The position numbers and the translations under genes were made by a program. The notes below the pieces were generated by a model. It was given only the letters and a program-made list of their open reading frames with translations. It ran no database searches and was not told where the DNA came from. Positions 1,128 through 13,997 of a stretch of 64,000 nt of DNA are shown here, piece by piece; position 1 is the stretch's first letter; each line of letters begins with the position of its first letter. The DNA comes from Myxococcus xanthus (GTDB lineage: Bacteria; Myxococcota; Myxococcia; Myxococcales; Myxococcaceae), in assembly GCF_900106535.1 (NCBI RefSeq), contig NZ_FNOH01000001.1, positions 992,001-1,056,000 on the forward strand, in the 5' to 3' direction.

Positions 1128-2678
1128 TCAGCGCCGCGCGGACGCGGTGAGCCAGGCCAGCCGCTCGGCGGCCTCGCGCGTGCGCGAATCGGTGAGCAGG
1201 TCACTCACGTTCTGTTCGATGCGGTAGGCCCAGTTCGAATCGCTCATGGAGCCGGGCAGGTTGATGCGGTCCCGGGTGCCGAGCACGTCCTGCCAGGGCA
1301 ACACGCACAGGTCGCTGTTGGCGTTGAGCGCCGAGGCCAGCATGGCCCGGTGCACGTCCGGGGTGAACTCGCGGGTGATGGCCACGCCGTTGAGCTCCGG
1401 CCATGAGCGCGCCGCCGCCTGCCGCTCGTGGTCGCCCGCGCCCTCCCACCACTCGGCCATCGTGTCCGTGTCATGCGTGCCGGTGGTGACCAGGGACACC
1501 GCCGGGAACTGGCGCGGGTCGCGGTAGTGGTTGTCGTCGCGCTCCCAGCGCATCACCCGGTAGCCGGGCAGCTTGAGCTCCGCGAGGATGTGGCGCACGA
1601 AGTGTGGAATCACGCCCAGGTCCTCGGCGACGATGCCGGCGCCCTCGGACAGCAGGCGGAAGGTCTTCTCGCCCAGGCGGCGGTGGCTCTCCTCGTCCGG
1701 CGGGATGAAGCGCCCGGTGGGCGTCTGCGCGTCGCGAATCCACTGCCGGAAGTACCCCACCGCGTGGTCCACGCGGCGCAAGTCGTAGTAGCTGGCCGCC
1801 TTCTTCGCGCGCGTCTTCAGCCACGCGAAGTCGTCCTTCTCCATGGCCGCCAGGTCGAAGTAGGGCAGGCCCCAGTCCTGGCCCGTGGCGGAGAAGTCAT
1901 CCGGAGGCACGCCCAGGCGGGCGTCGCGCCGCAGGATGTCCGGGTGCGCCCACACGTCCGCGCTGTCCTGACCGATGATGAACGGCTCGTCGCCGCACAG
2001 GAGGACGTCCTTGGCGCGGGCCTGCGTCCGCACCTCGTTCCACTGCTGCTCGGCCACCCACTGGAGCCAGGCGTGGTAGCGCACGCGGCGCTCCAGCTCC
2101 CGGGACTTCTGGGCCAGGGCCTCGGGTTGACGGGTGCGCAGCGGCTCCGGCCACTCCCACCACGGGCGGCGCTCTTCCTGCTCGCTGATGGCGGTGAAGA
2201 GCGCGTAGCTCTCCAGCCATTCGCCCTGGGCGTCGCGCCACTGGCGGAAGGTCTTCGCCCGCTCGGACTGGGGCGCCCAGTGCTGCGCTTCGAAGACGTC
2301 GAAGGCGCGCGCGAAGGCGGTGTCCTTGAGGGGGAAGACCAGGTCATAGCGCACGCGCGGCGCAGAGCGCGCCTCGGCCAACTGGGCGCGCTGCGCGTCG
2401 GACAGGGCCGCCTCGCCGCCGGCCGCGGTGAACTCCGGCAGCCGCTGCAGGTCGATGAAGAGGGGATTGAGGCCGAAGGCCGAACGCGTCGCGTAGGGGC
2501 TCGAGTCGCCCGGCGCGGTGGGCAGCAGCGGCAGCACCATCAGCATCCGCTGGCGGGCGGACTTCATCCAGGTGAACAGTCCCTCCAGGGCACCGAAGTC
2601 ACCGATGCCAAAGTCGGTCTGTGAGCGGAGGGAGAAAAGCGGGAGCAAAAGACCGGAGAGCCGGCCGGGGGTGGACAT
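1128..2678 (-). CDS. malQ: 4-alpha-glucanotransferase (amylomaltase)
   Basis: This is a 516-residue GH77 enzyme, which moves alpha-1,4-glucan segments between maltodextrins and glucose in cytoplasmic glycogen and maltose metabolism. The N-terminus MSTPGRLSGLLLPLFSLRSQ and the SSPYATRSAFGLNPLFIDL segment are typical of MalQ. The catalytic motifs are visible: RRVDHAVGYFRQW (nucleophile Asp), AGIVAEDLGVIP (acid Glu) and GTHDTDTMAEWW (third Asp). Length is close to the family norm of about 500-520. The ATG at 2678 is preferred over one four codons upstream (2690) because family members begin at this point. The gene stands alone between an upstream divergent glycosylase gene and a convergent lipoprotein gene. 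Confidence 0.93.
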   Translation of the reverse strand: MSTPGRLSGLLLPLFSLRSQTDFGIGDFGALEGLFTWMKSARQRMLMVLPLLPTAPGDSSPYATRSAFGLNPLFIDLQRLPEFTAAGGEAALSDAQRAQLAEARSAPRVRYDLVFPLKDTAFARAFDVFEAQHWAPQSERAKTFRQWRDAQGEWLESYALFTAISEQEERRPWWEWPEPLRTRQPEALAQKSRELERRVRYHAWLQWVAEQQWNEVRTQARAKDVLLCGDEPFIIGQDSADVWAHPDILRRDARLGVPPDDFSATGQDWGLPYFDLAAMEKDDFAWLKTRAKKAASYYDLRRVDHAVGYFRQWIRDAQTPTGRFIPPDEESHRRLGEKTFRLLSEGAGIVAEDLGVIPHFVRHILAELKLPGYRVMRWERDDNHYRDPRQFPAVSLVTTGTHDTDTMAEWWEGAGDHERQAAARSWPELNGVAITREFTPDVHRAMLASALNANSDLCVLPWQDVLGTRDRINLPGSMSDSNWAYRIEQNVSDLLTDSRTREAAERLAWLTASARR

Positions 2679-2785
2679 GGTGCGATGCAATCTGCCCCAG
2701 CCCCGCGCCGGTGGGAACTGTGGACGCTCTCCGAGTGTGTCTGGGTTCTTCGCTTTCCGGACGGAAGGGCCGTTAACATCCAGGT

Positions 2786-3370
2786 GTGAACTGGTTGCCG
2801 GAGTCTTTCTACGCCCGTCCCGCGCTGGTGGTCGCGCGGGAGCTGCTCGGCGCCTTGCTGGTGGTGGAGGAGGGCGGGCAGCGCCGGGTGGGCCGCATCG
2901 TGGAGACGGAGGCCTATATCGGCGAGCACGACCTGGCGTGCCACGCGGCCAAGGGACTCACCCCTCGCACCGAGGTCATGTTCGGACCGGCCGGCGTGGC
3001 GTACGTCTATCTGATTTATGGCATGCACCACTGCTTCAACGTGGTGACGGATGCCACGGGGGCGGGCGCGGCGGTGCTGGTGCGGGCGGTGGAGCCGGTG
3101 GAGGGCCTGCCCCCGGGGACGCGCACGGACGGGCCGGGCCGCCTGTGCAAGGCGCTGGGCCTCACCCGAGCGCACAACCGGCGGGGCCTGTGCACGCCCG
3201 TGCTGCACTTGCGACCCGGGACGCCTGTTCCCGAGTCAGCCGTGTCCCGGGGGCCTCGGATTGGCGTGGATTACGCTGGGACCTGGGCCGCCGAACCCTT
3301 CCGGTTGTGGGTCCGGGACAGTCAACACGTCAGCAAGGGGCCGCCACCGGGGCGCCGCAAGCCCGCTTGA
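2786..3370 (+). CDS. DNA-3-methyladenine glycosylase, AAG/MPG type
   Basis: A 194-residue base-excision repair enzyme that removes alkylated and deaminated purines. The family core is clear: VGRIVETEAYIGEHDLACHAAKG, which contains the catalytic Glu, followed by TPRTEVMFGPAGVAYVYLIYGMHHCFNVVTD. Near the C-terminus are GPGRLCKALGLT and the GPRIGVDYAG motif. The start is the GTG at 2786. The gene is divergent from malQ with about 107 bp between starts. It is followed closely by the sigma-factor gene, with 35 bp between them. Confidence 0.93.
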   Translation: MNWLPESFYARPALVVARELLGALLVVEEGGQRRVGRIVETEAYIGEHDLACHAAKGLTPRTEVMFGPAGVAYVYLIYGMHHCFNVVTDATGAGAAVLVRAVEPVEGLPPGTRTDGPGRLCKALGLTRAHNRRGLCTPVLHLRPGTPVPESAVSRGPRIGVDYAGTWAAEPFRLWVRDSQHVSKGPPPGRRKPA

Positions 3371-3405
3371 CGGCGGGCTTTCTGGCTGGTTGGGTGCGCC
3401 CCGCC

Positions 3406-4020
3406 ATGTCCGACGAGGCCGTCATGGGCGAGGACCGTCAGCTCCTCGCTCGCGCACAGGATGGGGATGTTTCCGCCTTCGAGGCCCTGGTGGATGCCCA
3501 CCGGGACAAGGTGTATGGCCTGGCGCTCCGGATGACCCGTTCGGAAGCCGACGCGGCCGAAATCACCCAGGACACCTTCCTGTCCGCCTACCAACACCTG
3601 AAGGATTTCCGGGGGGATGCGGCCTTCGGTTCCTGGGTGCACCGCATCGCCGCCAACCATGCGCTCATGCGCCTGCGCCACCGCCGCGTGGCCCAGGCAG
3701 CCGAGCAGGAGCTCCAGGGCCCGGAGTTCACCGAGCGGGGCTCCCTGGCGGATTATCCCCAGACGGATTGGAGCCGGGACGCCGAGGAGAAGGCCCTGGA
3801 CGCCGAGCTGGGCTCCGCCATCCAGCAAGCCTCGGACCGCCTGCCCGAGGGGTACCGGGAGGTCTTCCTCTTGAAAGACGTGGAGGGCCTCAGTTACGAA
3901 CAGATTGCAGAGGCGACGGGGGACTCCATCCCCGCCATCAAGAGCCGGTTGCACCGGGCACGGCTCGCGCTCCGTGAAGCCATCGACGCTTTCTACAACC
4001 GGGATAGCCGCGAGTTGTGA
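3406..4020 (+). CDS. RNA polymerase sigma factor, ECF/sigma-70 family
   Basis: A 204-residue group IV sigma factor that directs RNA polymerase to a dedicated promoter set. Region 2 is seen as FEALVDAHRDKVYGLALRMT, then AAEITQDTFLSAYQHLKDFRGDAAFGSWVHRIAANHALMRLRHRR. Region 4 is LPEGYREVFLLKDVEGLSYEQIAEATGDSIPAIKSRLHRARLAL, which contains the HTH that reads the -35 element. The ATG at 3406 fits the usual ECF N-terminus. The next gene encodes a zinc anti-sigma-like protein, which points to control by sequestration. Its layout resembles RpoE-type factors of Myxococcus, but I cannot assign a specific name. Confidence 0.92.
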   Translation: MSDEAVMGEDRQLLARAQDGDVSAFEALVDAHRDKVYGLALRMTRSEADAAEITQDTFLSAYQHLKDFRGDAAFGSWVHRIAANHALMRLRHRRVAQAAEQELQGPEFTERGSLADYPQTDWSRDAEEKALDAELGSAIQQASDRLPEGYREVFLLKDVEGLSYEQIAEATGDSIPAIKSRLHRARLALREAIDAFYNRDSREL

Positions 4021-4085: not shown

Positions 4086-4325
4086 ATGTACAACTGCAAA
4101 GATTCCATCAACCTCCTGCTGCAATTCCTCGACGGAGAGATGTCTCCCGAGGACACACAGCACTTACGTGAGCACCTGCGCGGTTGCAGTCCCTGTGTGG
4201 ACTTCCTGCGCACCTACCGGGCCACACCCGGGCTGTGCAAGAAGGCGCTGGTGGCGAAGATGCCGAAGGAAGTCTCCGAGAAGCTCACCGAGTTCCTTCG
4301 CTCCAAAATCAAGTCCGCCTCGTGA
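4086..4325 (+). CDS. zf-HC2/ZAS anti-sigma factor-like protein
   Basis: A 79-residue soluble protein with the ZAS zinc-binding pattern: YNCKDSINLLLQFLDGEM, then HLREHLRGCSPC, which gives H-x3-C-x2-C. Proteins of this family bind ECF sigma factors and often respond to redox stress. It has no membrane segment, so it would act in the cytoplasm. The ATG at 4086 has a GAGG five bases upstream. A GTG at 4017 that overlaps the sigma stop (GTGA) would add 23 residues in the same frame; that stretch has coding-like third positions, so translational coupling from the sigma gene is possible. Its position right after the sigma gene supports regulation of that factor. Confidence 0.85.
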   Translation: MYNCKDSINLLLQFLDGEMSPEDTQHLREHLRGCSPCVDFLRTYRATPGLCKKALVAKMPKEVSEKLTEFLRSKIKSAS

Positions 4326-5398
4326 ACCTGAAGTCCTTGTCGTTGCAGGAGTTGGAGGCCGCGCTCGCGCCGCTCTCCCCGTCGCCCGCCGCCGTCCGCA
4401 AGGTGTTCGCGGCCGTCTTCGCCCACGGTGCGCAGTCCGTGGAGGACGTCGCTTCGGCCCGTCAGGTGCCGCGCCGCGTGGGAGACCACCTGCGTGCCCA
4501 CGCGGAGATGCCGAAGCTGGCAATCGTCGAGCGCCGCCGCGCGGACGACGGCTTCGTGAAGTACCTCTTCGACTCGCCGCTGGGCGGACGTATCGAAGCG
4601 GTCCGCATCCCCATCTTCGATGAGAAGTACGTCATCTGCGTCTCCAGCCAGGTGGGCTGTGCGCTGGCGTGCGACTTCTGCATGACGGGGAAGTTGGGCT
4701 TCAAAAGGAACCTCCAGACCTGGGAGATATTGGACCAGGTGCTCCAGGTCCGGGAGGAAGCGGACCGGCCGGTGCGCGGCGTCGTCTTCATGGGGATGGG
4801 GGAGCCGCTGCTCAACTACAAGGAGACGCTGCGGGCCGCGGACATCCTGCGGCACCCTGCGGGGTTCTCCATCGCGGGCGAGGCGATTACCTTCTCCACG
4901 GCGGGCCATGTGCCGGCGATCCGCCGCTACGTGCGCGAAGGGCATCCGTACCGGCTGGCCTTCTCCGTGACGAGCGCCATCGCGGAGAAGCGGGCGAAGG
5001 TGCTGCCGATTGAGAAGACGCACCCGCTGCCGGAGCTCATCGCCGCCATCCGCGAGTACAGCGAGGTGCGGCGCGAGCGGGCGATGATCGCCTATGTCGC
5101 CATCAGCGGCTTCAACATGGGGCGCGAGGACGCCGAGGCGCTGAAGGTCGCCTTCGAGGGCATCCGCATCAAGGTGGACCTCATCGACGTGACGGACCCC
5201 ACCGGGAAGTACCTGCCGCCCACGCCCGAGGAGCTGAGCGCCTTCCGCGACCACCTCCAGATTCTCAAGTCGCCGGTGGCGCGTCGGTACTCCGGTGGCA
5301 AGGAGATTGGCGCGGCGTGTGGCACGCTGGCGGCCACGCAGTATGGCGGCACGGTGATGCCGCGGCCCGCCGAGGCGCCTCCGTCCACGACGCCATGA
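4322..5398 (+). CDS. rlmN: 23S rRNA (adenine-2503-C2)/tRNA methyltransferase RlmN
   Basis: A 358-residue radical SAM enzyme that methylates A2503 of 23S rRNA and A37 of some tRNAs. The Fe-S motif is CALACDFC (C-x3-C-x2-C), preceded by VICVSSQVG. The methyl-carrying Cys lies in the C-terminal EIGAACGTLAA. Other family segments are GVVFMGMGEPLLNY and FSVTSAIAEKRAKVLPIEKTHPL. The start is a GTG at 4322 whose GTGA overlaps the stop of the anti-sigma gene. No Shine-Dalgarno sequence is visible, so translation is probably coupled. That puts a translation-fidelity enzyme in a sigma/anti-sigma operon. Confidence 0.92.
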   Translation: MNLKSLSLQELEAALAPLSPSPAAVRKVFAAVFAHGAQSVEDVASARQVPRRVGDHLRAHAEMPKLAIVERRRADDGFVKYLFDSPLGGRIEAVRIPIFDEKYVICVSSQVGCALACDFCMTGKLGFKRNLQTWEILDQVLQVREEADRPVRGVVFMGMGEPLLNYKETLRAADILRHPAGFSIAGEAITFSTAGHVPAIRRYVREGHPYRLAFSVTSAIAEKRAKVLPIEKTHPLPELIAAIREYSEVRRERAMIAYVAISGFNMGREDAEALKVAFEGIRIKVDLIDVTDPTGKYLPPTPEELSAFRDHLQILKSPVARRYSGGKEIGAACGTLAATQYGGTVMPRPAEAPPSTTP

Positions 5399-5412
5399 CG
5401 CGGGCCCCGCGT
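5398..5412 (+). terminator. hairpin after rlmN
   Basis: ACGCGG at 5398-5403 and CCGCGT at 5407-5412 form a six-base stem with a three-base loop. It starts at the last base of the rlmN stop codon. No T-run follows. Confidence 0.35.
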
Positions 5413-5523
5413 GGGCCCCGGGGATGTTCACCGGTGGCGGGGCCAGGGCGGAAGCACCTTTCGTGTTGGCGGCTTCCGACTTAAATCCGACGGAGCACGA
5501 CTCGCCGGAGGTCGCACGCTCGG

Positions 5524-6144
5524 ATGGTGGAATACATCGACCAGCTCATCTCGGCCCTGGGGCCCCTGGGCCTGCTCGTGCTGGGGCTGGCGGCGATGCT
5601 GGAGTACGTCGTGCCGCCCTTTCCCGGAGACACCATCACCCTGCTGGGGGGCGTGTACGCGGTGCGTGGTTCGCAGCCGTGGGTGCTCGTCTTCCTGGTG
5701 GTGACGGTGGGCAGTGTGGTGGGCGCGGCCATCAACTACGCGGTGGGGCACTGGCTGGCGAAGCGCTTCGACGCCCACCCCGAACGCAGCTTCTTGGGCA
5801 TCACCCATGCGCGGCTGGAGCAGGTTCAAGCGCGCATGCGCGTGAATGGGCCGTGGCTGCTGCTGGTGAATCGGTTCCTGCCGGGCATCCGGGGCCTCAT
5901 CTTTGTCGCCGCGGGCGCCTCTCGCATGCCGCGCTTCAACGCGCTGGCGCTGGGCGCGGTGTCCGCCATGGCACATACCGGGCTGGTGCTGGGGCTGGGC
6001 GCGGCGGTGGGCGGCAATCTGGAGCGGCTGACGGCGCTCGTCACCCGGTACCAGTACGCGGTGGTGGGACTGGTCGTCATTGGCGCCATTGGCGTGGGCA
6101 TCCGGATGTTGGCCCGGCGCCGTGCCCCCGCGCCGGGGCCTTGA
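5524..6144 (+). CDS. DedA family membrane protein
   Basis: A 206-residue polytopic inner-membrane protein. DedA proteins are linked to undecaprenyl phosphate or phospholipid flipping and to envelope homeostasis. Family features include the N-terminal LISALGPLGLLVLGLAAMLEYVVPPFPGDTITLLGG, where the E-x-PFPGD core is diagnostic, and the later FLPGIRGLIFVAAGASRM segment. Four to five hydrophobic segments are visible. The ATG at 5524 begins MVEYIDQLISALG. The gene stands alone, with about 125 bp to rlmN and 69 bp to the next gene. Confidence 0.9.
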   Translation: MVEYIDQLISALGPLGLLVLGLAAMLEYVVPPFPGDTITLLGGVYAVRGSQPWVLVFLVVTVGSVVGAAINYAVGHWLAKRFDAHPERSFLGITHARLEQVQARMRVNGPWLLLVNRFLPGIRGLIFVAAGASRMPRFNALALGAVSAMAHTGLVLGLGAAVGGNLERLTALVTRYQYAVVGLVVIGAIGVGIRMLARRRAPAPGP

Positions 6145-6212
6145 GTTCGTCTCAGGACGGCGCCTTGGCGTTGCATTGCAGGGGCGCGCGGCCCCGCGCT
6201 TGAGTCGCGGAC

Positions 6213-8378
6213 ATGCATCCGCAGGCGCGTTCCTGGAGTCCATTGTGGGTGGCGCTCATGCTCGCCGTGGGCGGGTGCCAGTCGGGGGACTCCGGGATGG
6301 GAGGCTCGCGTCAGGGGTTCCGGCCCCGGGATGCGGTGGTGGACTTCGGCCGTGTGCTGGAGGGGACGCAGGCGCGCCGCGCGGTGACGGTGCTGGCCAC
6401 GGGCCGAGTGGGTCTGACGGTGGCGGCATCCGTGGAGGCGCCCTTCGCCGTGGTGACGTCCGAGGTGAGCATATCTGGCGGCGGCGCGACCGAAGTGGAG
6501 GTCGTCTTCACCGCGGGGCATGGGCCGTCGGAGGGAATGCTGCTGTTGTCAGGCGCGGGGCTGACGGAGTCCGTTCGCCTCACGGGCCTGGGCATCCGGC
6601 CCACGCCGTGTCCGGAGCGCCCCTGCTTCGACTCCCGCTTCGACGTGGCATCCGGGACGTGCGTGGAGGCGCCGCTGGAGGAAGGCGCCGCGTGCACGCC
6701 GGAGAGCCGCTGTCAGGTGGATGGCCGCTGCCAGGCGAGCGTCTGCGTGGGCCACCCGAGGACGTGTGATGACAACAATCCGTGCACGGTGGATGCCTGT
6801 TCGCCCACGCAGGGGTGTGTGACGTCGCGGGTGGCGTGCCCCGCGCCGCAGAACCCCTGCAAGGTGGGGGTGTGCGACCGGGACGAGGGCTGCACGGCGG
6901 TGGACGCCGACGACTTCAGTCCTTGCGGCCCGGCGGACTGTCAGAAGGCGCGTCTGTGCTTCAGCGGCGCATGCCGGGAGGTGACGCCACCCGAGGGCTT
7001 CGTCTGCGCGCCTGCTACCGCCTGCCAGGGAGAAGGGACGTGCCAGGGCGGCGTGTGTCAGCGGCCGGACCCTGTCGAGCTCGCGCCGGAGCTCAGCCTG
7101 GAGCTGGAAGGCGTGCCGGTGGAGGCGGACGGTGGGACGGTATTGCTCGTCTCGGAAGACGCTCTCTACACCTCCGTGTGTGGCGGGGACGCGGGCTGCC
7201 AGTTGGTCGCGTACACGCGCTCTGGGCTGCTGCGGTACGCGTCTTCGTACCCGGATGGGGGTGCGCGGACGCTGCTGGCCGCGTCGGATGCGGGCGTGGT
7301 GGTCCATGCGCCAGAGGGGCTCGAGGCCTATGCGCCGCGCGGCTCCGGTGCGCGCCTGTGGCAGGCCTCGTGGGCGTCGCTAGGGGCGGGCGAGGGCCTG
7401 CCGCTGGGAGGCGCCGCCGCGAGCCACATCGCACTCACGCACGAGGAGGACATCCTCGCGTACGTCGCGTGGCGAGCCGTGCCGGATGCCGGCGGCGTGG
7501 ATGATGGCGGCACCGCGCCTGAATCCGCGAGGCTCGTCTGGCTGTCGGGTCGCGAGGACGCTGGCACGTTGCTGGGCGCGTCACAGGTCGAAGCCTGGCG
7601 AGGAGAGGCGCGGCTGGGGCTGGACGTGCTGGGGACGGCCTATCTCTACACGGTGGATGGGCGACTGGCGCGGGTGGAGGTGTCGCCAGGAGTGGCGGAT
7701 GGCGGTGGGGGGACGGAGTTGAAGCTGAGCGCGCTGCTGGATGGCGGTGTTCCGGATGGAGGTGCGTCACTGGCCATCGCGGGTGGGCGGCTGCTGGTGG
7801 GAGCGCGAGCCTTTGTGCCGGAGGATGGCGGCGTGCCCGTCATGCTCTCCGAAGGGGGCGGTGGAGCCAGCGTGCGGGTGCCCATCGCGGAGCCGGCGCT
7901 CCTGTCCTCGGGTGGCCAGCCTGGCCAGCTCTTCGCGCGGGCATGTGCGCGCACGGACGGCGTTCCCTGCACGGCGCGGGAGGAGCGTGTCGTGCTTCGC
8001 GCCGTGGACCCGGAGTCCGGCCACGTGGTGTGGGAGGTGGATGCGCTTCCGGATGAGGTGGCACCGGGCACGGTGTACGAAGCCGCGTTGCTCCAAGGGG
8101 GCGCGGTGGCGGTGCTCGCTGACGCCGAACTGCCGGAGGGCCACCAGGCCTGGATACAGTTCTTTGCTCAAGGTGCCCGAGTCGGCAGTTGCCCGCTTCC
8201 CAGTCGCCCGCGGGTGGCGGGTGCCGCGTTCCTGGGGCAGCACCTGTATGTCGTCTTGAACCGCGATGGCGTGTGGCGACTCGAGTCGTACGGCCTGGGG
8301 CGGGACTTCATGACGGAAGACCGCGGCTGGCCGCAGCGCCATGGTGGACCCTTGCGGATGAGAAACGAATCTCCGTGA
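6213..8378 (+). CDS. Cys-rich beta-propeller-like lipoprotein
   Basis: A 721-residue predicted lipoprotein with a lipobox (AVGGC) near residue 22. Residues about 40-125 (AVVDFGRVLEGTQARRAVTV..., VEVVFTAGHGPSEGMLLLSG) resemble the immunoglobulin-like ASH or choice-of-anchor D fold. Residues about 130-290 are Cys-rich, with repeated elements such as CDDNNPCTVDACSPTQGC and CKVGVCDRDEGC that recall EGF-like or stigma-type modules of delta-proteobacteria. The rest contains repeating strands typical of a PQQ/WD-like propeller (VLLVSEDALYTSV, GRLLVGARAF, HLYVVLNRDGVWRLESYG). Asp-Gly-Gly-rich turns recur. Function is unknown; a surface or periplasmic scaffold is likely. Confidence 0.7.
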   Translation: MHPQARSWSPLWVALMLAVGGCQSGDSGMGGSRQGFRPRDAVVDFGRVLEGTQARRAVTVLATGRVGLTVAASVEAPFAVVTSEVSISGGGATEVEVVFTAGHGPSEGMLLLSGAGLTESVRLTGLGIRPTPCPERPCFDSRFDVASGTCVEAPLEEGAACTPESRCQVDGRCQASVCVGHPRTCDDNNPCTVDACSPTQGCVTSRVACPAPQNPCKVGVCDRDEGCTAVDADDFSPCGPADCQKARLCFSGACREVTPPEGFVCAPATACQGEGTCQGGVCQRPDPVELAPELSLELEGVPVEADGGTVLLVSEDALYTSVCGGDAGCQLVAYTRSGLLRYASSYPDGGARTLLAASDAGVVVHAPEGLEAYAPRGSGARLWQASWASLGAGEGLPLGGAAASHIALTHEEDILAYVAWRAVPDAGGVDDGGTAPESARLVWLSGREDAGTLLGASQVEAWRGEARLGLDVLGTAYLYTVDGRLARVEVSPGVADGGGGTELKLSALLDGGVPDGGASLAIAGGRLLVGARAFVPEDGGVPVMLSEGGGGASVRVPIAEPALLSSGGQPGQLFARACARTDGVPCTAREERVVLRAVDPESGHVVWEVDALPDEVAPGTVYEAALLQGGAVAVLADAELPEGHQAWIQFFAQGARVGSCPLPSRPRVAGAAFLGQHLYVVLNRDGVWRLESYGLGRDFMTEDRGWPQRHGGPLRMRNESP

Positions 8379-8414
8379 TGCCGGCGCCGCGCGCCACCCG
8401 TGCCTTGGGCTGTC

Positions 8415-11400
8415 TCAGGTGGCGGCGTTCGGGTCGACCCAGAGGTCTTCGAAGCGCACCTGGGGCGGCGTCTGGTGCAGCCGCAGGCTTTGGACCGCGG
8501 GGGTCGCGGCCGCGTGGGCGCGGTCGTGGTACAGCGGGATGAGGGGGCAGTCCTCCTGGAAGAGCTGCTCCGCGCGCAGATAGAGCTGACGGCGCAGCTC
8601 CGGGTCGATGGAGACGCGGGCCTCGGCGGTGAGGCGGTCCAGCTCCGGGTTCCGGTAGCCCATGGGGAACACCGTCTGGGCGTTGGAGTGGAGGAGGAAG
8701 TACAGGAAGGTGTCCGGGTCCGGGTAGTCGGCCAGCCAGCGGTTGCGGAAGGCGGGGAGGCGGCCCTCGGTCACCTGGGCCGTGTATTCCTCGCGCGACA
8801 TCTCCACGTAGCGCAGCTCCAGCAGCCCGGCCTGGAGCAGCGGGCGGAAGAGCACCGCGTCCTCCGCGGAGTGGTCATTGCCGGTGGGACGGTGGAGCGT
8901 CAGCCGCAGCCTGCGCAGGCCTGCCTCTCGCAGCAGCCGCTCGGCGAGGGCCACGTCCGGTACGGGCGCGGGTCCCATGTCCGCGTCATCCAGCAGCTCG
9001 GGTGGGGTCAGCGAGCGAGCCACGCGCGCGCCGGGGTGGAACTGGCTCACCATGGCCGGGATGTCCATGCCCGCGCGGAGTGCGCGACGGACCCTCACGT
9101 CGTCGAAGGGCGCCTCCCGGTGGTTGAGCACGACGAAGGCCGTGGAGGGCGTGGTGCTCGCGGCAAGCTGGAAGGCCTCCAGGCCGGGCAGCTCCACATG
9201 CTCCGTGTCGAGGAACGACACCAGGTCCACCGCCCCCTGGCGCAGCAGCGCCACCGCTTCCTTACGAGAACCGGCGAGCAGGAACTCCAGCCGGTCCACC
9301 ATCGGTCCGCCCGGACGCCAGTAAGAGGGGTTCCGCTCCAGCACCACGTGCTCGGGTTCCAGGGCGAGGAGCCGGAACGGCCCGGTGCCCACCAGCCGCC
9401 CGTTGGCGTCCGTCCGGGCCACCGCGGTGGCGGTGAGCGCCATCAACTGGAGGAAGAACGCCTTGGGCTCGCGGAGGCGAATCTCCAGCGTGTGGTCGTC
9501 CAGCACTTCCAGGCCGGACACGTCGCGCGCCATGCCAGCGGCGTACTCCGGCGCGCCCTCCACGTCCTCCAAGAGGCTCCGGTCGGGCGAGCGGAGCGCC
9601 GGGTCCAGCAGCCGCTCCAGGTGGCGCTTCACGTCGCTCGCCGTTAGCAGCGTGCCGTCGTGGAAGGTGACGCCACGGCGCAGGTAGAAGCGGTAGCGGC
9701 GCGCGGAAGGGTCTGCGTCCCAGCGCTCGGCCAGGTCGGGCTCCAGCCCGCCGTCCTCTCTGCGCACCAGTGTGGAGAACACGCACGAGGTGAGCTCGGA
9801 GACCTGGTTCTCCACGCTGAAGAGCGGGTCCACCGCCTGGCGGTTTCGCAGCGACGCGGCCTGGTGCATGCCCACGCGCAGCGTCCCGCCGGAGTGGGGC
9901 GTGGGGAGCTTGAAGTGGTACACCTCCGCTTCCAGGCCCTCTGCTTCGTGGCCCAGTTGGTCCACCGTTCGCGTCAGCCCGTCGCCGATGCGGATGACCC
10001 GGCGTGCGTCCTCGCGCACCTGGGCGACTTCCTCGCGGATGGAGGCGTCTGCCTTGGTGAGCACCACGTTGGCGGAGCGCAGCTCCTCCAGGGCGGCGCT
10101 CAGCCGCACCACCGACTCGGAGAGGTCGCGCCCGGTGCGCGCCTGGGCCTCCGCCTTCTGCGAGGCGCCCTGGCCCACGCGGGCCATCTCCTGTGTCTGG
10201 CGCAGCAGCTCGCGCGCGTGGCCGGACTGTTCAATGGCCATGCGCGTGACGTTCTCCACCCGCAGGGCCACGCGGCGGCTGGCTTCAACGACCGTGGCCC
10301 CCTGCGCCTCCAGCCGTTGCGTCTCCGCCACCGTGGCTTCAACGGCGGTGAAGGTGCGCTGGGTGATGGTGCGAATCTCCACCAGGGCCTCGGCGGCGCG
10401 GTCGCCCAGGGCCACACCGGCGGTGGCTCGCTCGCGGCCTTCCTGCACCAGCGCCACCGCCGTCTGCACGGCGTCGCGCACGCCCGCCACCATGGCGCCG
10501 ATTTCGCGGGTGGAGCGCGTGGTGCGCTCGGCCAGGTTGCGAATCTCGTTGGCCACCACGCCGAAGGGCCGCCCCTGCACGCCCGCCTGGGCGGCGATGA
10601 TGGCGGCATTGAGGGCCAGCAGGTTGGTCTGGTCCGCAATCTCCTGGATGACGTCGACGATGCGGCCGATTTCCGTCGAGCGCGTGCCCAGCATCTCCAT
10701 CAGCTCGGCGGCCTTCCGGACCGTCTCCTCCACCCGGTACATGCCCTTGACGCTGTCGCCCACCAGCACCTCGCCGCGCTCGGCGGTGGCCGTCACGGCG
10801 ATGGCCAACTGGTTCGTCTCATTGGCACGGCGGCGCACGGAATCGATGCCGCCTTCCACGGCGGCGACGAAGTCCTCGGCCTCGCTGGCGAAGCGGCCCA
10901 GTTCGTCACCGGACGCGGCGATGTTGGCCATCCGTTCGGCCATGGCCTGCATCAGCGACGTGGTGTTGTGGGCGAAGGTGTTGACCTGGGCCAGCGAGTC
11001 CACCACCTGCTCCAGCCGCTCCGTCATCTCCAGCAGCGCGCCGGTGGTGTCGACGGCGAAGACCTCCAGTTGGTGTACCCGCTTGCCTGCCACCTGGAGG
11101 CTGCCGCCCATTCCGCTGACGGCCTCCAGCGTGCGCTCCACCGCGCCGCCCTGCCGCCGCGCGGCCTCCAGCAGCATCCGGGCCTGCCCGCTCACGTCCG
11201 TGCTGGTGCGGTGCAGGTTGGCCGTCACCCGCTGCACCTGCGCCAGGGCGCGCCGCAGGGACAGGATGAGGCGGCGCACGTCCTCGTGGCCTTCATAGCG
11301 CGGCCCCACCGTGGTGGTGAGGTCGCCCTCCGCCAGCCGCGCCATCACCTGCCGGCGCACCTGCCGCCGCTGCGCCGCCCAGCGGAACCACGCGAGGTAT

Positions 11401-11561
11401 CCCCCCGCCAGATAGAGCGCGGGCGTGGCGAGCAGCACCACCGCCCAGGTGGCATTCGGAAGCGGCGCCCCGGACACGGCTCGCAGCATCCCCCCCAGGA
11501 GGAGCGCGGAGACCAGCCCTGCCGCCAGGCCGAACGTGAACAGGTACCGTTTGGCGCCCAT
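8415..11561 (-). CDS. chimeric methyl-accepting chemotaxis protein / family 5 solute-binding protein
   Basis: A 1048-residue fusion. Residues about 7-29 and 39-60 are two membrane helices separated by only about nine residues, followed by a HAMP-like linker and a long receptor coiled coil. The signalling tip, near residue 315-330, reads IADQTNLLALNAAIIAAQAG, followed by VQGRPFGVVANEIRNLAERTTRSTREI. From about residue 555 a full SBP_bac_5 domain follows (TLRVGMHQAASLRNRQ, GLEPDLAERWDADPSARRYRF, GVTFHDGTLLTASDVKRHLERLLD, GTGPFRLL, FRNRWLADYPDPDTFLYFLL). These domains normally bind peptides or nickel in the periplasm. Here no signal precedes the domain, so topology places it in the cytoplasm. 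The tip lacks usual receptor residues (see findings). The gene is divergent from the transglutaminase-like gene with 62 bp between starts. Confidence 0.9.
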   Translation of the reverse strand: MGAKRYLFTFGLAAGLVSALLLGGMLRAVSGAPLPNATWAVVLLATPALYLAGGYLAWFRWAAQRRQVRRQVMARLAEGDLTTTVGPRYEGHEDVRRLILSLRRALAQVQRVTANLHRTSTDVSGQARMLLEAARRQGGAVERTLEAVSGMGGSLQVAGKRVHQLEVFAVDTTGALLEMTERLEQVVDSLAQVNTFAHNTTSLMQAMAERMANIAASGDELGRFASEAEDFVAAVEGGIDSVRRRANETNQLAIAVTATAERGEVLVGDSVKGMYRVEETVRKAAELMEMLGTRSTEIGRIVDVIQEIADQTNLLALNAAIIAAQAGVQGRPFGVVANEIRNLAERTTRSTREIGAMVAGVRDAVQTAVALVQEGRERATAGVALGDRAAEALVEIRTITQRTFTAVEATVAETQRLEAQGATVVEASRRVALRVENVTRMAIEQSGHARELLRQTQEMARVGQGASQKAEAQARTGRDLSESVVRLSAALEELRSANVVLTKADASIREEVAQVREDARRVIRIGDGLTRTVDQLGHEAEGLEAEVYHFKLPTPHSGGTLRVGMHQAASLRNRQAVDPLFSVENQVSELTSCVFSTLVRREDGGLEPDLAERWDADPSARRYRFYLRRGVTFHDGTLLTASDVKRHLERLLDPALRSPDRSLLEDVEGAPEYAAGMARDVSGLEVLDDHTLEIRLREPKAFFLQLMALTATAVARTDANGRLVGTGPFRLLALEPEHVVLERNPSYWRPGGPMVDRLEFLLAGSRKEAVALLRQGAVDLVSFLDTEHVELPGLEAFQLAASTTPSTAFVVLNHREAPFDDVRVRRALRAGMDIPAMVSQFHPGARVARSLTPPELLDDADMGPAPVPDVALAERLLREAGLRRLRLTLHRPTGNDHSAEDAVLFRPLLQAGLLELRYVEMSREEYTAQVTEGRLPAFRNRWLADYPDPDTFLYFLLHSNAQTVFPMGYRNPELDRLTAEARVSIDPELRRQLYLRAEQLFQEDCPLIPLYHDRAHAAATPAVQSLRLHQTPPQVRFEDLWVDPNAAT

Positions 11562-11623
11562 GAAGGAGTGGAACGCTACTCCGCCTTCTCGCGCCGGTCC
11601 TCAAAACGCCGCACACTGGGGCC

Positions 11624-12649
11624 GTGGCCACCCTGCTTGCCCTGCTGCTGCTGACGCTCCCGGTAAAGCCAGAGAATCCTGGTAGCGCTGGCGCGCCACC
11701 CGCGTCCCAGGCGGATTCCACGCGTTACGTCTTCGCCTGGCGCGGCGTGCCGGTAGGCACGGTGACGCTGAAGCTGGAGCCGGGCCGTTTTACCTACGTC
11801 AGCCAGCACCTGCACACCCGCGCCGGAAAGGCGGGAGCGCGCCGCCGGGAGCAGTCCCTGGCGGTGGATGCCCAGGGGCGGGTGCGTGGCTCGCCGGCGG
11901 TGCCGCAGGCGCTGTGGCTCTGGAAGGGCGTGCCCGCCGTGGGGTGTGTCGTGGGGCGGGAGGAGCTGACGGGCCGCGAGGGCCCACACTGCGTCACCCG
12001 CGTGGAGGACCGGCGCGTGGAGGGAACGTTGTTGGGGACGGCCTTCCAGGCCCGCTATGGGGCGGACGGCCAGATGGAGGCGCTGGAGGTGGGCGACTCG
12101 CGCTTCACCGTGGCCGCGCCTGGGGAGCGGCTGCGCGCGCCTCCCGAGCTTTTCGCGGACGGACTGCCCGTGGAGGGGGCCCGAGGCGCGCTGTCGCTGG
12201 AGCCGCCGCTCGACGTTCCAGCGCGGCCGGCGGGGCTGACGCCGTGGAATGCGGCGGCGGCGCGGGCGCTGGCTGCCGAGGTCCACGCGGCCTTCCCGGA
12301 GAAGACGCCCGGTGGTGCGGACTGGAGCGAGGACGGCGAGGGCGAGGCGGGCGGGTGCCTGGCGCACGCGCTGCGCTTCGCGGCGGGGGCCCGTGCTCGG
12401 GGCGTGAAGGTGGCGCTGGTGCACGGGCTGCTGGTGGTGGACGGCGGGCCGGCGCGCCCCCACGCCTGGGTGCGCGTGGCGCTGTCGAAGGGCGGGACGT
12501 TGGATTTGGACCCGACGTCCCTGGACGAGGTGTCACCGCAGACGCACCTGCCCATCGCCCTGGCGGAGGCGCAGGGCCCCGCGCTGGAGGCGGGGGCGCG
12601 CTGGCTGTCGCTGCTGCGCGGGGCGCACCGGGTGGTGCGCCGGCCGTGA
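11624..12649 (+). CDS. transglutaminase-like domain protein
   Basis: A 341-residue exported protein starting at a GTG at 11624 with a short hydrophobic leader (MATLLALLLLTLPV). The C-terminal half has a transglutaminase-like Cys-His-Asp arrangement: C245 in GGCLAHALRFAAGARARG, H280 in RPHAWVRV and D296 in LDLDPTS. The N-terminal half (YVFAWRGVPVGTVTLKLEPGRFTYVSQHLHTR) resembles beta-rich domains found in front of such folds in delta-proteobacteria. In this superfamily the triad acts as protease, amidase or crosslinker; the substrate here is unknown. The gene converges on astA with 9 bp between them. Confidence 0.7.
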   Translation: MATLLALLLLTLPVKPENPGSAGAPPASQADSTRYVFAWRGVPVGTVTLKLEPGRFTYVSQHLHTRAGKAGARRREQSLAVDAQGRVRGSPAVPQALWLWKGVPAVGCVVGREELTGREGPHCVTRVEDRRVEGTLLGTAFQARYGADGQMEALEVGDSRFTVAAPGERLRAPPELFADGLPVEGARGALSLEPPLDVPARPAGLTPWNAAAARALAAEVHAAFPEKTPGGADWSEDGEGEAGGCLAHALRFAAGARARGVKVALVHGLLVVDGGPARPHAWVRVALSKGGTLDLDPTSLDEVSPQTHLPIALAEAQGPALEAGARWLSLLRGAHRVVRRP

Positions 12650-12658
12650 GGCAGTGGG

Positions 12659-13684
12659 TTATTCGAAGGGGATGATGGACACCTTCGCGCCGGCCTGGAT
12701 GTCCAGGACCTCCTTGGCTCGCGCGGGCAGGAAGGCCTGGGTGTTCTCCAGCCGGGCCTGGCAGCGCACGGCGCGGAAACGGTTGCGGCCGGAGTCATTC
12801 TCCGCCGCGACGAGGACGTCATCCCCCTCCAGGTCGAAGTCCTCCTCCGCCACCTTGAGCGTACGGAACTTGCGCACCAGGGAGATGTCGGCGGTGTCGG
12901 CCTCGAAGTGGGGACCGCCGTCGAACGGGTCGATGCGCTCCATGTACTTGAAGCCGATGCGCTCCAGCATGCGCTGCACGCCGCGCGTCTGCGGGCCCAC
13001 CTCGCCCAGGACCTTCTGTACGCGCGCGGGGAAGAGCGACGCGTAGATGTCCGAGGCGGGGAAGAGCTCCTTGATGAACTCCTTGTTCTGCCGGCTGAGG
13101 CGGTCCGCCTCCTGGTAGGTGAGGCCGGTGAACTTCTTGCCGCAGGCCTCCCACAAGAGGCTGCGGCCGTCCGGCAGCAGCGGCGGCAGCAGCTCCGCCA
13201 GCACGCGAGGGCGGAAGAGCCGCCGGTGCATGGCGATGAAGAGGAAGCGCCCGTAGGACAGCTGCTTGCCGGGCTTGTCCGGCGTGGCGCGGTAGGGCGG
13301 GTCCACGACGAGGCCGCCCACCTCGGTGGGGCCCTCGTAGTTGTAGGCGATGGAGAGGACCTTGTGGCGAAGGTGACGGGAGAGGGACGCGGAGTAGTGC
13401 TCGCGCTCGCTCACCTCGTAATAGATGTGCGGAGCCTCATAGGTGCCGTGCTGCGCGATGATCATCGACGTGCCGATGATGAGGCTGTTGCGCACGTCTT
13501 CGAGCACGAAGAGGTACTCGCGCTCGAAGGGGTTCTTCACCTTGCCCGCGAAGCTCTTCACCGACGTGTCCACGATGGCCGACAGCGTTTCCTCGTTGTT
13601 CGGCAGGTTCACCGTGTTCAGCACGGCCGCGAGCCTTTTGAGCCCGGGCAGGTCGGTCTTCTGGACGTCACGCAGGACAAGCAT
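12659..13684 (-). CDS. astA: arginine N-succinyltransferase
   Basis: A 341-residue enzyme that transfers succinyl from succinyl-CoA to arginine, the first step of the AST arginine-degradation pathway. The sequence follows AstA along its length: MLVLRDVQKTDLPGLKRLA, FVLEDVRNSLIIGTSMI, HIYYEVSEREHYS, EVGGLVVDPPYR, LSYGRFLFIAMHRRLFRPRVLAELLP, GKKFTGLTYQEADRLSRQNKEFIKELFP and a C-terminal beta segment. The ATG at 13684 is chosen because the protein then begins exactly as the family does; an upstream in-frame start at 13741 would add 19 unrelated residues. No astB, astC, astD or astE is visible next to it. Confidence 0.93.
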   Translation of the reverse strand: MLVLRDVQKTDLPGLKRLAAVLNTVNLPNNEETLSAIVDTSVKSFAGKVKNPFEREYLFVLEDVRNSLIIGTSMIIAQHGTYEAPHIYYEVSEREHYSASLSRHLRHKVLSIAYNYEGPTEVGGLVVDPPYRATPDKPGKQLSYGRFLFIAMHRRLFRPRVLAELLPPLLPDGRSLLWEACGKKFTGLTYQEADRLSRQNKEFIKELFPASDIYASLFPARVQKVLGEVGPQTRGVQRMLERIGFKYMERIDPFDGGPHFEADTADISLVRKFRTLKVAEEDFDLEGDDVLVAAENDSGRNRFRAVRCQARLENTQAFLPARAKEVLDIQAGAKVSIIPFE

Positions 13685-13997
13685 TGGGACACTCGGGGCG
13701 CCCCCGGAACGGAGCGCCGGAAAGTGCGGACTATACCCCACACCTGCCGCCAGTCAGCTTGAAGGTTGTCCGGCGTGTTGATGACGCGACGTGTTGCTGT
13801 CGGCTTGCCAGGACGCCCGGAGTGTGTCAGCCGCCCTGCGCTCGACGTGAAACATGGCGTGAAACATCCAAGGCCTTGCATGCCCGCCTGCCCACTTGCC
13901 GGCCCAGCGGGAAGGATTTCGCGGGGGAATGAAGCAGTGAATGGTTTGCGGTACCGTGTGCCGGTTGTTGCATTCCAAACCTTTGCGAGGATGTGTT
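13685..13997. other. divergent intergenic region between astA and the lyase-like gene
   Basis: This 313-bp stretch separates two divergent genes and should hold both promoters. It contains a direct repeat of GTGAAACAT at 13847-13855 and 13859-13867 (12-bp period), which could be a protein-binding site. No credible small gene is seen. Confidence 0.4.

Follow-up and report, generated by a model that had tools for sequence, protein, structure and literature searches.

The window analysed here, a 64,000-nucleotide stretch of Myxococcus xanthus DNA, encodes a membrane-anchored chemoreceptor in which a full solute-binding domain of the peptide type, most likely cytoplasmic, follows a complete receptor hairpin, and whose signalling tip carries a pair of exchanged residues that appears to be an old alternative tip of very long receptors. 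The ORF (8415..11561, minus strand; window coordinates, as throughout) begins with ATG and specifies 1048 amino acids. The protein is orthologous to McpK of M. xanthus (MXAN_6456), an identification drawn from its length, its domain content, 99% identity along 1048 residues with the locus L061, labelled M. xanthus AM003, and its distance to the DifA candidate described below. Its relatives with 98-99% identity carry the labels Myxococcus xanthus, Myxococcus sp. CA023 and M. vastator. In the source genome, assembled to 9.26 Mb, MCPsignal is matched 21 times.

The fusion of receptor and solute-binding domain is itself already known. McpK was listed in 2014 as an orphan of 1048 amino acids with a bacterial extracellular solute-binding domain (PMC3945109, Table 1), and that paper was the only one found to cover M. 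xanthus McpK when the literature on McpK, the 64H class and fusions of receptors with solute-binding proteins was searched; the McpK of Pseudomonas is an unrelated protein. In the sections of the paper cited here, five mcp mutants are named as free of defects, McpK being absent from the list (section 7), and McpK is outside the set of ten fusions that were localised. McpK is thus a known but unstudied receptor, whose function we infer. What is new here is the support for a cytoplasmic topology, a length class other than the published one, and an Ile/Gln tip whose residues co-vary and mark the lineage of long receptors.

The domain architecture is clear in outline. Pfam finds MCPsignal at residues 259-423 (1.9e-30; 106.4 bits against a cut-off of 34.6) and SBP_bac_5 at residues 606-961 (4.7e-66; 223.8 bits against 32.4). 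All features lie on the minus strand. By hydropathy, the chain begins with two membrane helices, one at residues 7-26 (11484..11543; median 2.07 in 68 rows of the orthologue alignment) and one at residues 41-59 (11385..11441; median 1.57 in 67 rows), the second followed by a positively charged stretch. A HAMP-like linker can be placed at residues 60-102 (11256..11384) by eye only: the string LAEGDLTTTV makes the originally noted HAMP-like region plausible, and Pfam detects no HAMP in the protein at E 0.001. The N-terminal arm of the receptor hairpin (residues 103-317; 10611..11255) aligns almost without gaps with 21 other receptors that share the Ile/Gln tip. The tip itself, NAAIIAAQAGVQGRPFG, reads as first noted, occupies residues 318-334 (10560..10610) and overlaps at 328-334 with the C-terminal arm (residues 328-552; 9906..10580), which comprises the 225 residues after NAAIIAAQAG and ends in ..YHFKL. 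The solute-binding domain (residues 556-1048; 8418..9896), recognised by Pfam and phmmer, follows the arm directly after LPTPHS, with its conserved GGTLRVG start at residue 558. Neither a hydrophobic stretch nor a signal peptide or lipobox precedes it; PTPHSGGTLRVG comes directly after the coiled coil. Two membrane helices, a receptor coiled coil and a full SBP_bac_5 domain with no signal between them, as first read from the DNA, are thus confirmed by Pfam, hydropathy and conservation among orthologues.

The location of the solute-binding domain depends on whether a third membrane helix lies before it. Table 1 of PMC3945109 gives a TMHMM count of three for McpK, as would be expected if a helix in the C-terminal arm carried the domain to the periplasm. 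The best candidate is the segment at residues 354-372, which has the highest 19-residue Kyte-Doolittle mean between the N-terminal helices and the solute-binding domain (1.43). Hydropathy before the domain rises to 2.13 in one orthologue (L032), and windows above 1.6 occur there in 7 of 65 rows, the other 58 having none. The segment, however, sits inside the receptor coiled coil as part of the arm: it aligns without gaps with the coiled coil of the 21 other receptors, and the rest of the 225-residue arm comes after it. Moreover, its median hydropathy across orthologues is only 1.18 (68 rows), and in distant orthologues it drops to -0.19 with charged residues inside. We find no convincing third membrane helix before the domain, and a periplasmic location is very improbable. 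The positive-inside pattern agrees: in every one of the 65 rows counted, the predicted inside carries more net positive charge than the short loop. (Charge and hydrophobic windows were counted in 65 rows, with L087, L086, L084, L085, L001 and L030 left out; segment hydropathy was taken from 67-68 rows, after removal of L087, L001, L030 and any row whose segment was too short.) Since both lines point the same way, the domain is most likely cytoplasmic, as the original prediction had it, and residues 354-372 are the likely source of the third helix in the published count.

The length of the C-terminal arm sets McpK apart from most receptors of its own genome. We compared it with the 21 other Ile/Gln receptors from 15 genomes (L103-L123; L103 is from the same genome and the rest were chosen among the matches listed). 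From NAAIIAAQAG to the stop codon there are 225 residues in 18 of them, and 226, 223 and 257 in one each. This leaves no room for a C-terminal solute-binding domain, and Pfam finds no SBP_bac_5 in the five that were scanned. The last residues are RFKL or RFKV in eleven of the 21 and similar in most of the rest, and the end of the McpK arm aligns with these C-termini. In McpK, ..YHFKL falls at exactly 225 residues, and GGTLRVG begins six residues on, so the solute-binding domain starts where the other long receptors end. The 19 canonical receptors of the genome run for 140-163 residues past the tip motif in 18 cases and for 428 in the other (L007). The latter, by its length a probable Mcp7 orthologue, has a canonical tip and no further Pfam domain over cut-off in its 428 residues.

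In the original classification, 64H stands for thirty-two heptads per arm. About 32 heptads amount to 224 residues, and McpK has 225 to ..FKL; about 22 heptads, as expected of a 44H receptor, amount to 154, close to the 157 of the DifA candidate. Judged by arm length, rather than by the published 64H profile, McpK is thus of 64H length, and its published assignment to 44H is unsupported by this count. McpK shares the arm of about 32 heptads with the 64H class (so named in PMC8235581), to which it adds a C-terminal solute-binding domain. The same count leaves the 40H assignment of McpJ, as the wording of PMC3945109 has it, without apparent support.

This revision bears on the pathway that McpK may serve. 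In section 8 of PMC3945109, McpK and DifA are both placed in Group 1 and class 44H, and a link of McpK to the Dif system is suggested, so that McpK might signal together with DifA. The DifA candidate of the source genome (L003) was recognised by position, near CheW and a CheA-like CheW domain. It has a Glu/Arg tip, whereas McpK has Ile/Gln, and the two arms differ as stated above; the 64H length of McpK argues against the pairing, as does the view that receptors of differing lengths appear not to form trimers (PMC3945109). We therefore regard signalling through Dif as quite unlikely. In short, where the 2014 paper gives three membrane helices, class 44H and a Dif link, we find two helices, 64H length and a tip unlike that of the DifA candidate. 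Another receptor of the genome, L001, was considered as DifA and rejected: the nearest CheW on its contig is more than 130 kb away among the matches listed, and L003 fits better.

We turn to the tip. When McpK is aligned with the genome's own 19 canonical receptors, I322, Q325 and V328 fall at the positions of Tsr E385, R388 and E391, so McpK lacks the canonical residues at all three. Of the 21 receptors of the genome, 19 have Glu and Arg or Lys at the first two positions; the exceptions, with Ile and Gln, are McpK and L001. In McpK orthologues (69 rows; L087 and L001 left out), Ile stands at residue 322 in 67, the other two having Leu, and Gln stands at residue 325 in 68, the exception being the distant orthologue L084 with Gly. 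Residue 328 behaves differently, with Glu in 57 rows and Val in 12: the window protein, its close relatives L023-L030, and L038-L040. Since Glu is the rule among orthologues, and another residue also stands there in three of the genome's 19 canonical receptors (Val, Gln and Asp in L020, L013 and L014, against Glu in 16), E391V is a local change that deserves no weight.

The first two positions also vary together across the phylum. A hydrophobic residue paired with Gln occurs in 129 of 193 Myxococcota genomes, and the reversed-pattern control is zero in every row listed. Mixed pairs are nearly absent. A hydrophobic residue with an Arg-type residue was matched in two of the 193 genomes, one of them encoding Ser, and this is chance level, since its reversed control matches four genomes; Glu with Gln was matched in one. 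The Glu/Arg pattern was found in 30 of the 31 genomes searched for it, the source genome included. An inter-dimer ionic lock homologous to Tsr E385-R388' has been modelled in an archaeal transducer (PMC8144572). With the two residues as partners in such a lock, the counts indicate that both positions change together. E385I/R388Q is an old, co-varying alternative tip of a very long receptor lineage, reaching beyond McpK alone. Four plasmid receptors, examined out of 4020 records matched, had canonical tips. The suggestion that the altered tip rewires the receptor away from standard arrays is thus left with two of its three residues, and the comparison of homologues that could have exposed the changes as random decay divides in the same way: Ile/Gln is kept, while Glu at the third position is still the common state.

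If the tip had nevertheless degenerated, McpK would exert no control over a kinase and might serve as a membrane-tethered cytoplasmic peptide-binding protein or as a scaffold. The changed residues and the orphan gene would fit this, as would a single strict methylation consensus, at residues 488-497, which suggests in any case that McpK may adapt poorly. We found no CheW domain near McpK or L001 in the source genome, and for 31 sites of the Ile/Gln pattern in 18 further genomes the nearest CheW on the same contig, among the matches listed, was about 77 kb away, several of the contigs being short. Conservation and co-variation of the pair, with the remaining tip intact, speak against decay, however, and in section 8 of PMC3945109 the predicted CheW-binding motif is retained in all M. 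xanthus MCPs. The tip thus seems not to be decaying, and loss of kinase control is unlikely.

The partner suggested by the tip is L001 (L103 in the set of long receptors), which by relative position and length is probably McpJ. It shares with McpK the Ile/Gln tip, the 225-residue arm and orphan status. It differs in having a HAMP found by Pfam, in having no solute-binding domain, and in keeping Glu where Tsr has E391. A tree built from 53 tip regions contains a branch (support 95/85) that sets McpK and every Ile/Gln row on one side. McpK rows do not form a strict single group: four Ile/Gln receptors that have no solute-binding domain lie near L083 on a long branch. These four (L117-L120) are from what we take to be an Anaeromyxobacter-like family; they contain four to six hydrophobic segments, leave no space for a solute-binding domain, and may have lost it.

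Since the tree puts all Ile/Gln receptors together, the shared tip may reflect ancestry, and conservation of the pair could be no more than the heritage of one lineage. McpK might then be an ordinary long orphan receptor that serves Che7/Che8 or some other pathway of Group 1, with a tip that marks its lineage and insulates nothing. Its placement in Group 1 and the tie of McpJ to Che7/Che8 (PMC3945109) are in favour, while the joint change of two trimer-contact positions, mixed pairs being nearly absent from the 193 genomes, is harder to reconcile with it. We consider this account possible. We entertain with similar reserve a bolder one, in which the long receptors would use an orthogonal trimer code, Ile/Gln being swapped as a unit, and would assemble only among themselves as an insulated layer fed through McpK. 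How a cell keeps many receptor arrays separate is an open question, and a two-residue swap at the tip, linked to length, would be a simple and testable rule.

The solute-binding domain gives some indication of what McpK may sense. Its closest PDB entry by sequence is 8upi, a peptide ABC transporter protein (phmmer, 6.7e-41), and OppA entries are also matched. Asp945 of a W-x-A-D motif (8727..8729) aligns with the Asp of WCADY in OppA, which there contacts the amino group of the peptide. W942 and D945 are at least 97% conserved (69 rows; L086 and L001 left out), and L078 has Asn in place of D945. Profiles of oligopeptide-binding proteins score 110 and 101 bits on the domain, those of nickel-binding proteins 78 and of the dipeptide-binding DppA 62. 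Metal sensing, one of the two functions first proposed, is not favoured on these scores, the nickel profiles being under the oligopeptide profiles, though over DppA. Sensing of a peptide or an amino ligand is plausible and our leading guess. Only two other relatives of the domain are found in the genome at E 1e-5, with 30-37% identity (G000:C1:891361-892617 and C16:83249-84625).

We are inclined to think that McpK is a membrane-anchored receptor of 64H length, with a cytoplasmic peptide-type sensor at the C-terminal end of its complete hairpin and with trimer partners of the same length and tip. As the receptor arms are antiparallel, the sensor would adjoin the HAMP-like region under the inner membrane, some 33 nm from the tip if the 225 residues form a helix. 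The two lobes of the domain would close upon binding a ligand from the cytosol, most likely a small peptide or some other molecule that bears a free amino group. Closure would shift the packing of the membrane-proximal bundle, from where the signal would run to the tip. Because Ile and Gln replace both partners of the E385-R388' lock, assembly with receptors of the same tip is expected, in M. xanthus with McpJ, and not with 40H receptors or a 44H DifA. Whole-chain structure prediction, proposed as a check, models helix 1 as a helix (block pLDDT 72-75). The AlphaFold models are otherwise poor (mean pLDDT 45.6 for the chain and 47.7 for the solute-binding domain, with 12 alignment rows each), so the junction geometry is unreadable and domain closure is beyond their reach.

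Myxobacteria feed on peptides, and McpK suggests that they may use a chemoreceptor to follow a peptide or amino compound inside the cell. With periplasmic proteins of the OppA/DppA type McpK shares the fold family and the W-x-A-D motif; it differs in having no signal peptide, in being fused to a receptor and in its predicted cytoplasmic location. SBP_bac_5 is also part of intracellular regulators in SgrR and DsvR, transcription factors that join it to an HTH domain, where the output is DNA binding instead of a receptor hairpin (PMC13060122). Among the seven MCP topology classes described in one review, a sensor after the signalling domain does not figure, the sensor position in class IVa being left unstated (PMC8396549).

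The fusion is old. Relatives of McpK (E <= 1e-60; some rows are fragments at contig edges) occur in 92 of 195 Myxococcota genomes, namely 88 of 96 in the family of the window and four of 99 elsewhere. In three of these four (G155, G152 and G163) the ORF carries both domains by Pfam; in the fourth (G164) the receptor and solute-binding halves lie at the ends of two contigs. Within the genus, one locus (L082; G058:C4:214196-218319) has mcpK in two frames, 462-2942 and 2086-3630, owing to a frameshift in the stretch that joins the receptor to the solute-binding domain, which could be a natural separation or an assembly error.

The neighbours of mcpK are a Radical SAM/rlmN-like gene, a VTT/DedA gene, a transglutaminase-like gene and astA, syntenic in close relatives; none of the genes listed is a chemosensory or transport partner. 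Over window positions 4184-13741 the order is rlmN-like, VTT/DedA, an unknown gene, mcpK, transglutaminase-like and astA, and it is kept in Myxococcus, Pyxidicoccus and Citreicoccus to the extent of the stretches fetched. Positions 6213-8378 encode a cysteine-rich protein of 721 residues that matches the Dicty_CTDC repeat.
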